The notes under the pieces: generated by a model
The model's input: only the letters and a program-made list of their open reading frames with translations
The model's database searches: none
What the model was told of the DNA's origin: nothing
In this document: piece by piece, positions 54,812 through 59,459 of the stretch
How positions within the stretch are numbered: position 1 is the stretch's first letter
How the letters are laid out: each line of letters begins with the position of its first letter
Made by a program: the position numbers and the translations under genes
Assembly (NCBI GenBank): GCA_003224525.1
Contig: QHZB01000195.1
Location: forward strand, 16,082 to 80,081
Reading direction: 5' to 3'
Source of the DNA: Acidobacteriota bacterium
Lineage (GTDB): Bacteria; Acidobacteriota; Terriglobia; Acidiferrales; UBA7541
Length of the DNA: 64,000 nt

Positions 54812-55444
54812 GACTGTGACTCCGAAAATGCATTGACCGGCGCGAGTTCAAATTCCGCCATCGAACGGGGTGCCTATTTCTTGACGCCCCTGACATACGA
54901 AACCCCACCGGGACGCTTATTGACGAGCAATAAGATGAAGATTTCGAACTTCATTCAGGCACGTCCGTTCCCGCTGGAAAGGCTTCGGGAGAAGAATGCA
55001 GAATCCTTCCGTAGCCAGCAATGGAACGAAAGTAGGAGAGGATGAAACTTAAGTCCTAGCGGGTTACCGAGAAGCCTTGTGTTTACCTATCGACTTGGGA
55101 GCCGCATTCCGATTCCCCCTGAGAAAATTGCGATGGCAGGCGCTGGCTTGGGACCGCTTGAATTGAACGAGAATTGGTTTCGCCATTGGCGCGCAATGTG
55201 CCCTCCAATAATTGCGTAGGAAGAACGGGAAAGGCTATGAGCGCGCGTTACTGAGAGTTTTTCGGCGAATGCTGAACGTGGCAGTCCGAAAAAAACTACT
55301 ACCACCCGGGGGTAGTCCAATTCCCGGCTCCGGGGCATGGCCTGCTGTTAACCAATCAGGACGAGTGCGTCCGCCACACCAATTAATGCATGTATGTCCG
55401 AATGATTCGCTGTCGCGGGCCTTTGTTCCGGGAGCGGCAAGGGA
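54812..55444. other. Intergenic region of 633 bp with a hairpin
   Basis: No supported gene. A short plus-strand frame near 55212-55310 contains RVFRRMLNVAVRKKLLPP, which resembles the core-binding part of a tyrosine recombinase but is too short to call. A hairpin at 55298-55316 is listed separately. It lies between the orphan immunity gene and the VapBC-like pair. Confidence 0.35.
55287..55316 (-). terminator. Candidate intrinsic terminator on the minus strand
   Basis: An inverted repeat ACTACC...GGTAGT at 55298-55303 and 55311-55316, with a CCC/GGG core, is followed on the minus strand by AGTTTTTTT. This is the layout of a Rho-independent terminator, but no minus-strand gene ends here. It could be the remains of a lost gene, or an operator for the VapBC-like pair. 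Confidence 0.4.
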
Positions 55445-56088: not shown

Positions 56089-56354
56089 AATTAGGCAGTG
56101 TAAGGCAAGCCCTGCAGAACGCGGGATGGCACCTCCAACCGGACGAGTCGAATTCCCTGACGCTAGGTTTCCAATTTTGATGAGCCGCGCTCCTTACTGC
56201 CGTTCGTTACCCGCCCGACCTTGAGTTCGGTTTCAACACGCATGTCCGCGATGGTCGCCAACTTCTGCGCAAGTTCAGCGCGCTTCCCTGCTTTGAGTGC
56301 GCGGAAGCCATCCTTAGATTGGCATCGACTGTTTGATGTGCCGGCATGCAAATT
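56089..56354. other. Intergenic region after VapC
   Basis: No supported gene. A short minus-strand frame (about 56163-56351) contains KAGKRAELAQKLATIADMRV and could be a leftover of a mobile-element protein, but I do not recognise it. Confidence 0.3.
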
Positions 56355-56945
56355 TTAGACCCTTAGCGAGCCACGGAACGCCCTAGCGGCATAGTAAGAT
56401 TCCGCACCGTTGTGATACACGAAAACAGTGTCGTAGCGGCGATCACAAAAGAGGGCGCCGCCGAGTTTTCTGATATCAGAAGGTGTTTTCACCCAGCTCG
56501 ACGTTTTCGTATCGAAATCTCCAAGTTTCTGCAACTCTCGATATTGTTCTTCCGTTAAAAGCTCAATGCCCATGGCAGCTGCCATATCAATAGCGTTATC
56601 TTCTGGTTTGTATTCTTTCCTTGACTCCAGCGCTTCACGGTCGTAGCAAACACTTCTGCGGCCTTTAGGACTTTCCGCTGAACTATCATAAAAAATGTAT
56701 TCGCCCGTCTTTTTATCATGACCAACAACATCCGGTTCACCGCCAGTTCTTTCCATTTCATTGAGTGACCACAGTTTTTCGGCACTAGCTTCCAGCTTTG
56801 CTTGCACTTTATCCCATTCAAGACCTTTATGGCGGTTCATGTTTTTCTCAAAACGGGCTTTCAATGCTCTGAGTAGTTCTTTACGTTGTTCTGGTGACAA
56901 GTCCTTTTTGTTGCTATTAATGTTTCGCGCTTTTGTTGCTCTCAT
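56355..56945 (-). CDS. DUF4256-family protein, AT-richer than its neighbours
   Basis: 196 residues. Sequence features of DUF4256 are LSPEQRKELLRALKARFEKN near the start, ASAEKLWSLNEMERTGGEPD, then KTGEYIFYDSSAESPKGRRS and the C-terminal ALFCDRRYDTVFVYHNGAES. Function of the family is unknown. The gene looks visibly AT-richer, with more A/T-ending codons than the flanking genes, so it may have been acquired by transfer; base composition was judged by eye. It lies 18 bp downstream of the YjbR-like gene on the same strand. Confidence 0.8.
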   Translation of the reverse strand: MRATKARNINSNKKDLSPEQRKELLRALKARFEKNMNRHKGLEWDKVQAKLEASAEKLWSLNEMERTGGEPDVVGHDKKTGEYIFYDSSAESPKGRRSVCYDREALESRKEYKPEDNAIDMAAAMGIELLTEEQYRELQKLGDFDTKTSSWVKTPSDIRKLGGALFCDRRYDTVFVYHNGAESYYAARAFRGSLRV

Positions 56946-56963
56946 AATCGCTTCCCGCGTTTC

Positions 56964-57329
56964 TTATCTGTTACTCCGCTGCGCTCCGCCACCTGTTTTT
57001 TTTCGGCTTGTCTTTGCGTTCCTATCAATTCGCGGTCTCCACGCCGTTCGGAGTGCACCCGTCAGTACATCCTCGCTCGCCGCCAGGCGAATATACGGGT
57101 GTCCCACCTTTCCCCAGCCGCCAGGAATCGGCAGGAAACTCTCGGGCGCCTCCTCCACAAACGCCGCCTGCCGCTCCAGAGTAAGCATCAGATTTCCGTA
57201 CCCCCTTGCTTGCGAGGCCAGCGAAGCAAATTTCCTGCCTGCTACACGAAAAGCCGGCAATCGTGCGTGGGAGTATTCTTCCACCCCCTTCAGGCTCAGT
57301 GCAATCCTGCGAAAGTCTGCTGCGGTCAT
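56964..57329 (-). CDS. MmcQ/YjbR-family protein
   Basis: 121 residues from the ATG at 57329, preceded by GGAG. The sequence MTAADFRRIALSLKGVEEYS, then HARLPAFRVAGRKFASLAS and GGWGKVGHPYIRLAA, fits the YjbR/MmcQ family of small proteins with a CyaY-like fold that may bind DNA. The C-terminal tail is basic (RPRIDRNAKTSRKKTGG). The function of the family is poorly known. An upstream extension (to 57533) has no matching sequence, so it was left out. It may form a pair with the DUF4256 gene. Confidence 0.78.
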   Translation of the reverse strand: MTAADFRRIALSLKGVEEYSHARLPAFRVAGRKFASLASQARGYGNLMLTLERQAAFVEEAPESFLPIPGGWGKVGHPYIRLAASEDVLTGALRTAWRPRIDRNAKTSRKKTGGGAQRSNR

Positions 57330-57598
57330 CGGGTGACTCCGTAGATTGCGGAGTATCTGACCATCACCGGACGGTATATGTCTACTGCTCCGGGCCGAAT
57401 CATGGGCAAACCTTCCGTTAAGGCTTTGAGGAAGAGGCTTTCGGGAAGAGTTGCCGACTATACGCCAAGAGCCTCGTATTTCGCGTCTCGCAACCACGTT
57501 CCCGGCCAGCGAGGGCACTTGATTCCGTGACAATGTCCGGTTATATCCAGCGTGATAACGAGGTGTCGTTCAAAGCAAGGGCCTGCAACCGTTCGAGT

Positions 57599-57970
57599 TT
57601 ATTGCTTCTGCCATTTCGCTTCGATCTGACCCCGCGAGGCGGTTTGTTCCCCTGAGTATTGGATTGCATCGAACCAGGACTGCGCCTTTTTTACCTGCTC
57701 CCAGTTCGTCGCGACCCAATCTACTAAGGCCTGCATTGGAAGGAGCAAGCTTTTTCCGAGGCTCGTAAGTTCGTATTCGACGCGTGAGGGAACCTCGGGA
57801 AACACTTCTCTTGTAATCAATCCGTCGCGCTCTAGATTTCGCAGGGCTAGCGTGAACATTCTTTGGGAGATTCCAGGGATTGTTCTTTCGAGCTCAGAAA
57901 ACCAGGCGCGGTTCCCAAGTAGCTTGGCAAGGGAGAGAATCAGAAAGATACTCCACTTGTCTCCGACCAT
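57599..57970 (-). pseudogene. HxlR-family regulator, N-terminally truncated
   Basis: 123 residues of a winged-helix HxlR/MarR-like regulator: MVGDKWSIFLILSL, then FSELERTIPGISQRMFTLAL, RNLERDGLITREVFPEVPSR and VEYELTSLGKSL. HxlR proteins normally have about 20 more residues at the front, including a conserved Cys-Pro, which are missing. Upstream the frame continues only 9 codons to a stop. It sits tail-to-tail in reverse with an azoreductase remnant, its typical target. Both starts are lost in one place, so I treat it as damaged although the wing is intact. Confidence 0.7.
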
Positions 57971-57971
57971 T

Positions 57972-58400
57972 TCAACAAAGGATGCGGCTGAAGCTCAGAA
58001 ATTAAAGTGGTCGGTAAGTCTTTCTAAGCTGACCGACGAACTCTTGGGGTCGGATCTTTTGGTCATTGCAACGCCAACGTGGAATTTCAGCATTCCTTCC
58101 TCGCTTAAAGCGTGGATTGATCTTGTTGTTCGTCCCGGCAAGACCTTTTCATATACGAATGATGGTGTGTTGGGACTGGCAAAGGGCAAAAAGGCGATTT
58201 TGGTGTTGGCATCAGGCGGCGTGTTCACCGAAGGCCCATGGAAGTCATGGGACTTCGTGGAGCCCTATTTGCGCAAAATCTTAAGTTTCATCGGCATTGA
58301 CACCGTCCAGACTGTGCGACCTGAGGGCATGAATATCCCGCCCCTTGCAGATAGTGCCGTGCCGAACGCAGAAAGGGCCGTTGAGAACCTTGCCCTTTAG
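57972..58400 (+). pseudogene. azoR: FMN-dependent NADH-azoreductase, N-terminally truncated
   Basis: About 142 residues remain of a flavodoxin-fold azoreductase. The C-terminal part is clear: LLVIATPTWNFSIPSSLKAW (FMN site), IDLVVRPGKTFSYTNDGVLG, LVLASGGVFTEGP and LSFIGIDTVQTVRPEGM. The first 65-75 residues, with the phosphate-binding start, are absent, and no good start codon is present. Upstream sequence is the reverse-oriented HxlR gene. Enzyme function is probably lost. It precedes a SnoaL-like gene. Confidence 0.78.
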
Positions 58401-58484
58401 GCGAAAAGGCGTGCCTTTCAAGATGCGGAAAGAGCCAAGAGTTGCTTCGTGTCGACGCTCACGTCGGGCGCCAAGGAGTTGATG

Positions 58485-58916
58485 ATGTCGAAAGCCGAGT
58501 ACGAGGTTTTTGAAGCTCTCAATCCTTTCTTCGAAGTCGTCATGGAAGGCTTACGTGGACTCGTTGATGGCGACGATTATTTCGACACGATTGCCGAAGA
58601 CGCATTCTTCGAGTTCCGATATCACTTTCCTGGTTGGCCTCTGACGATTCGCGGACGAGCCAATCTGATGGCTAGCTTCTCGGGATACGGCAAGACGATC
58701 AAGCTTCACTCCGGCGACGCACTTGTTGTGCATCGCTCTCAGGATAGTCGCGTCGTGATCCTCGAATACGAAGTGCACGGCAGGATTCTTTCGAGCGGTG
58801 CGCCCTATGACAACAGACTCATCTCGGTCATCACGATTGAGAACAGAAAAATCGTTCATTGGAGAGACTACGTGGACTCTTTAACTGCCTGGAGGGCGCT
58901 GAATAGCTCCTCTTAA
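58485..58916 (+). CDS. SnoaL/NTF2-like protein
   Basis: 143 residues from the ATG at 58485, which has AAGGAG 6 bp upstream. The NTF2-like fold is suggested by ALNPFFEVVMEGLRGLVDGD, FFEFRYHFPGWPLTIRGRAN, VVILEYEVHGRIL and the final WRDYVDSLTAWRALN. Such proteins bind or convert small ligands; no catalytic residues can be assigned with confidence. It is 84 bp after the truncated azoreductase and could have belonged to its operon. Function unknown. Confidence 0.75.
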   Translation: MSKAEYEVFEALNPFFEVVMEGLRGLVDGDDYFDTIAEDAFFEFRYHFPGWPLTIRGRANLMASFSGYGKTIKLHSGDALVVHRSQDSRVVILEYEVHGRILSSGAPYDNRLISVITIENRKIVHWRDYVDSLTAWRALNSSS

Positions 58917-58979
58917 CATTTTTAGCTCACCGGCACGGCGCCTGATCACGTTCCCTCCCCGCTTACACCTACTGTCGCC

Positions 58980-59271
58980 GCGCCGCCAAGCTAAAAATGC
59001 TCTGCATTGGAGCAAAACGCTTCGCCGAGCAAAGGTCCTCTATTCCCGCATCTACGACCTTCGATCCACTTATGCTACGCGGCTAAGTGCTGGGGGAGTG
59101 GCGGATGAATGGGTGACTCAAAGGCTGCGCCAGGGAGACGCGCAAGTCTTCAAGAAGTACTCTCAAATGAAGTTGCAGATGAAGCGGGAAGCCCTGGAGA
59201 AGCTCAACCGCCGAGCCGGCGAAATAGCTCCGGTGACTGCAGAACGAATGTGCACGGTCATAGTTCAATAA
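58980..59271 (+). pseudogene. Tyrosine recombinase (integrase) C-terminal remnant
   Basis: On the plus strand: HWSKTLRRAKVLYSRI, YDLRSTYATRLSAGGVADEW, VTQRLRQGDAQVFKKYSQMK, LQMKREALEKLNRRAGEIA. YDLRSTYATRL holds the conserved Arg, and FKKYSQM resembles the catalytic Tyr region of this acidobacterial integrase type. The N-terminal part is missing. It lies 111 bp upstream of the tRNA-Pro, and repeats of TGCACGGT occur between them. Probably the relic of an element that used this tRNA. Confidence 0.72.
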
Positions 59272-59382: not shown

Positions 59383-59459
59383 CGGGGCGTAGCGCAGCCT
59401 GGTAGCGCGCCTGCCTTGGGCGCAGGAGGTCCCGAGTTCAAATCTCGGCGCCCCGACCA
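59383..59459 (+). tRNA. tRNA-Pro (TGG)
   Basis: A complete cloverleaf is visible. Acceptor arms CGGGGCG and CGCCCCG pair perfectly. The D stem is GCGC/GCGC. The anticodon stem CCTGC/GCAGG encloses loop CTTGGGC, giving anticodon TGG. The T stem CCGAG/CTCGG encloses TTCAAAT. A genomically encoded ACCA end is present (59456-59459). It is the likely integration site for the integrase relic upstream. Confidence 0.97.

Follow-up and report, generated by a model that had tools for sequence, protein, structure and literature searches.

The locus examined here lies in a stretch of 64,000 nucleotides from an Acidobacteriota contig (the window, meaning that whole stretch) and holds, on opposite strands, what is left of a gene for an HxlR-type regulator (hxlR) and of a gene for an FMN-dependent NADH-azoreductase (azoR), which abut each other with both 5' ends missing. 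The question it raises is how both ends were lost, and whether either gene still serves a function. The answer that we consider highly probable is that these are a pair of pseudogenes, left from an acquired divergent hxlR/azoR unit in which about 371 bp around the shared promoter were lost by illegitimate joining.

Close homologues of both genes were found in Acidobacteriaceae dw_441 (L034, the same genome as G129), in a genome of the same class (G168) and in two drafts labelled Gammaproteobacteria (L035) and Alphaproteobacteria (L033). The earlier note had presumed that the intact homologues lie divergently side by side; all four relatives have the two genes in divergent orientation, and the adjacent hxlR/azoR-family pairs, taking all listed hits paired within 3 kb, are divergent in 8 of 8 cases, window included. 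The codons that flank the joint of the window sit exactly 371 bp apart in L034, L035 and G168. Both genes are intact in two of these three relatives, L034 and G168, where the 371 bp are contiguous, though at lower identity to the window, and divide into 90 bp from hxlR, 107 bp of intergenic DNA and 174 bp from azoR. In L033 a SnoaL-like gene lies between hxlR and azoR.

Alignment to the intact relatives showed that hxlR homology ends at the Val codon of VGDKW (57965-57967) and that azoR homology begins at the Ile codon of ISTKD (57969-57971), the joint reading CTCCACTTGTCTCCGACC/ATTTCAACAAAGGATGC in the window and the base between them (C, 57968) being compatible with the hxlR side; the remnants thus meet where the earlier note had placed them, near 57970. 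Past GAC(C) the relatives' hxlR runs into TT.GT, and in their azoR a GC(A/G/C) codon precedes AT(T/C)TC.AC. Because the two sides do not continue into each other, the comparison for short repeats that the note had proposed, with L034, L035, L033 and G168 as proxy ancestors, turned up no repeat of at least 3 bp at the joint, while microhomology of 2 bp or less is compatible with it if the bases of the relatives held in the ancestor. Being free of such repeats, the joint would fit illegitimate joining and not recombination between repeats, and the former looks like the mechanism of the deletion. HxlR residues 1-30, the intergenic region and azoreductase residues 1-58 were removed together; both genes are indeed truncated at the 5' end as first noted, at sizes other than those given then (about 20 and 65-75 residues). 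The single joint and the presence of the 371 bp in three relatives support the proposal that one deletion would account for the loss of both 5' ends.

Table 1. Features at and around the hxlR/azoR joint (window positions; a slash within a sequence marks the joint).
Feature	Position	Strand	Basis or remark
DUF4256/YjbR block	56301..57466 (right end 57456/57466)		Same-genus G014 and G018 carry it at 93-94% identity; left border of hxlR segment
Block shared with G041:C321:14578-15044	57477..57941		94.7% identity
hxlR remnant, without residues 1-30	57599..57967	-	Val codon of VGDKW (residue 31 of L034 homologue) to stop
Deletion junction CCGACC/ATTTCAACAAAGG	57967..57969		Comparison with relatives' hxlR and azoR
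Non-native ATG at joint, opening an apparent 123-aa HxlR ORF	57968..57970	-	ORF list and sequence
azoR remnant (FMN-dependent NADH-azoreductase), without residues 1-58	57969..58400	+	143 codons = residues 59-202 of homologues, one internal codon lost
SnoaL_2-like ORF	58449..58916	+	Directly after azoR in window; 51% identical to L033 copy between hxlR and azoR
Tyrosine-recombinase-like integrase stump, last ~92 residues	59008..59271	+	tblastn with intact G003 protein
tRNA-Pro (TGG), presumed attachment site	59383..59459	+	Beside integrase stump

In the course of events that we propose, a divergent unit would have been acquired, consisting of an HxlR-family regulator and an FMN-dependent azoreductase/quinone reductase probably under its control; illegitimate joining would then have deleted about 371 bp centred on the shared promoter, stripping both genes of their 5' ends and promoters, the regulator of its first 30 residues, N-terminal Cys included, and the reductase of its flavin-phosphate loop, and the remnants have presumably lost their function. 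Pseudogenes formed when an illegitimate deletion crosses a divergent promoter are likewise marked by one joint and by loss of the promoter region and the two 5' ends, and this pair shows no categorical difference from them; it would be a clean example of a regulator and its presumed target being killed at once by a single short deletion of this kind.

The HxlR remnant still contains the winged-helix domain (Pfam PF01638, E = 6.5e-25 on 57599-57994 of the minus strand, profile positions 1-89 of 91). The sole N-terminal Cys of its homologues, seen as VCGHED or VCRSSD in L034, L035, G168 and L033, lay in the deleted part (SVCGHEDPAAVRELLTK), and the window protein thus has no N-terminal Cys of the kind that marks redox sensors of the YodB/HypR/CatR type. 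Residues invariant in the homologues are replaced in the remnant (R to W, L to F and T to A), although replacements at invariant sites, taken as a test of decay, gave no clear excess for hxlR. The azoR remnant represents two thirds of an FMN-dependent azoreductase, the C-terminal part, and covers only positions 72-196 of 198 of the Pfam profile Flavodoxin_2 (E = 5e-33); the first strand and the flavin-phosphate loop (SPRGxxSAS; SSPRGxESASR) fall within the lost residues, and the PM(W/Y)NF motif reads PTWNF, its Met replaced. A leave-one-out count found replacements at 7 of 75 otherwise invariant azoR sites against 3-6 in the homologues, no clear excess. The promoter scan returned one site, about as many as in shuffles, and promoter and terminator scans together gave nothing clearly above shuffles; elsewhere in the genome no second azoR of this family was found.

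Apparent azoR ORFs of 182 and 256 aa extend through the antisense of hxlR; since these cross antisense hxlR and the HxlR ATG sits at the joint, neither ORF start is native, and caution is needed as gene callers may report two plausible non-native ORFs here (a 123-aa HxlR and a 182-aa azoreductase). Some points speak against a pseudogene pair: both remnants are open frames with no stops, the HxlR domain is nearly whole, an ATG is available at the joint, decay of azoR is not evident, and the estimate of selection given below comes from 14 substitutions.

That estimate was obtained with the nearest copy of the hxlR remnant, in G041, a genome of the same family as that of the window and, by its labels, of a different genus. 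There the match stops abruptly inside hxlR, which is broken off at the position equivalent to 57941, and a Fic-like ORF (called by sequence motif) abuts it beyond the break. The truncated proteins do not recur as conserved forms in other genomes, which the note had named as a refutation; this nearest copy is broken at a different base. Over 113 shared codons the two remnants differ by 10 nonsynonymous and 4 synonymous changes (dN/dS 0.77), and a neutral rate is not rejected (p = 0.43, with 14 substitutions only), whereas over the same part the intact pair of L034 and G168 has a dN/dS of 0.05 (Fisher p = 0.0003 versus the remnants). Purifying selection on the hxlR remnant since the split from G041 is not detectable in this small set of substitutions, and by this measure hxlR is a pseudogene; no copy of azoR that close was found.

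Because the remnant evolved neutrally in both lineages, hxlR was probably already dead at or before the split between the window and G041 copies, so that the 371-bp deletion may have been preceded by another inactivating event; the earlier statement that the unit was lost in one step holds for the present junction and perhaps not for the first loss. To the alternative that follows we give an even chance: the whole unit was dead in the common ancestor of both copies, by the 371-bp deletion or by another lesion, and G041 subsequently lost a further part. In that case the deletion in the window would be one stage in the decay of a mobile region rich in fragments, not necessarily the inactivating one, which refines the explanation proposed above. 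Both hxlR remnants diverged neutrally throughout their separation despite different visible breakpoints, which speaks for this alternative; on the other side, the substitutions are few and two independent early inactivations would yield the same pattern. The simplest reading is that hxlR was dead at the split, perhaps by the window's own deletion, and that G041 was trimmed further later.

Returning to the pseudogene pair, its setting in this soil-type acidobacterium is a mobile stretch next to a tRNA gene and full of fragments, and the decay of the two genes there is of an ordinary kind. The DUF4256/YjbR block has sharp ends, is flanked by other genes in G014 and G018, and behaves like a mobile gene block; its right border coincides with a dispersed intergenic palindromic repeat (GTTGCCGACTATACGCC...CGCAACC, window 57443-57520), which also occurs in L073, L074 and L075 and at other places in the genus. 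An integron cassette with attC was considered at this border (GTTGCCG at 57449-57456, imperfect palindrome AACCTTCC...GGGAAGAGTT) and rejected, as there is no GTTRRRY core and the candidate overlaps the dispersed repeat. On the other side, intact homologues of the integrase directly adjoin tRNA-Pro(TGG) in G003 and G035, and the stump is placed likewise in the window. With a mobile block to the left and an integrase stump beside tRNA-Pro to the right, the hxlR/azoR remains appear to sit in a decayed integration site; a literature search on the decay of acidobacterial islands found nothing specific.

An integrase gene or stump stands beside tRNA-Pro(TGG) in several genomes of the genus (G003:C4, G035:C58, G032:C116 and G018:C224). 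A second fragment of the same integrase type (residues ~155-193) was seen at window 55251-55379, 3.6 kb left of the C-terminal stump, and either insertions have split one integrase or this is a second relic. Where the stump is broken it is bordered by a hairpin-forming repeat of ~92 bp (58917-59008; terminal inverted repeats CATTTTTAGCT...AGCTAAAAATG; DNA fold z = -3.1), which recurs within the genome and has copies up to 98% identical in six genomes of the genus, including G000:C12:26516-26606 and G029:C600:4240-4328; it has the appearance of a small element, mobile or MITE-like.

In a draft genome of 516 contigs, and with dispersed repeats in a mosaic neighbourhood, an assembly or binning fault could be suspected of having united two fragments at the joint, but the joint offers no repeat to mislead an assembler and its two sides are the same two neighbouring genes in correct orientation, which makes such a fault improbable. 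A still smaller chance is left to a 123-aa HxlR whose translation starts at the joint's ATG and which still acts as a DNA-binding regulator without a redox Cys; the open frame and nearly complete domain would allow it, and against this stand the near-neutral dN/dS, the changes at residues invariant in homologues and the removal of the native promoter and first residues. Least credible are two separate truncations, one per gene, meeting by chance, for although single-gene truncation is known in relatives (L035, L036), two events would have to end at the same base where one deletion is enough.

The close azoR copies (n = 9: the window, L033 to L038, G168 and L042) are full length in four cases and truncated or frameshifted in five. 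The N-terminal residues missing number 36 in L036, 58 in the window, 111 in L042 and about 143, with a change of frame, in L038, and the L037 copy is frameshifted; in drafts such shifts may stem from sequencing errors, and the truncations fall within contigs. The hxlR gene is cut at differing places in L035 (after 51 residues), G041 and the window. On the basis of azoR broken in 5 of 9 close copies and hxlR broken at three different points, it is conceivable, if rather doubtful, that this subfamily moves laterally as an accessory unit and, once it has reached soil acidobacteria, is inactivated time and again; if true, this would suggest that the unit carries a cost or is of use for a short time only. 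Only in this recurrent breakage across several draft genomes would the locus have a wider reach.

Regarding the former role of the pair, the N-terminal Cys of the intact relatives lies about 15 residues before GDKW, the usual spacing in the HxlR family being 9-10 residues, and in sequence the intact homologue of the regulator matches HypR better (4A5N, 1.2e-16) and YodB weakly (5HS7, 1.8e-8). HypR, YodB and CatR sense via conserved N-terminal Cys residues, AzoR1 is a detoxification enzyme in the YodB/HypR/CatR regulon group, and YodB/azoR1 of B. subtilis is the precedent for a quinone/diamide response (PMC6943732). As with B. subtilis YodB, azoR1 and yodC (MarR/DUF24, i.e. HxlR, family), an HxlR regulator is here linked to an FMN-dependent azoreductase and its homologues carry an N-terminal Cys; unlike that system, both window genes are 5'-truncated, the relatives' genes are divergent neighbours and the Cys spacing differs. 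By this analogy azoR was probably regulated by the neighbouring HxlR, while a YodB-like quinone/diamide response of the ancestral pair, as the earlier note had it, is plausible but a guess, because of the closer match to HypR and the unusual spacing. The intact L034 enzyme resembles AzoR-type FMN-dependent NADH:quinone oxidoreductases (1.3e-35 against 4C0W over residues 4-184, and 1.5e-33 against 1V4B), whereas residues 1-58 of such enzymes, SPR...SAS loop included, are missing from the window copy. Directly after azoR, a glyoxalase/VOC-like ORF (assigned by motif; start like MIDHVILTVSDVKRSLAFYEA) was seen in L034, L035, L036 and L037, the SnoaL-like ORF occupying that place in the window.
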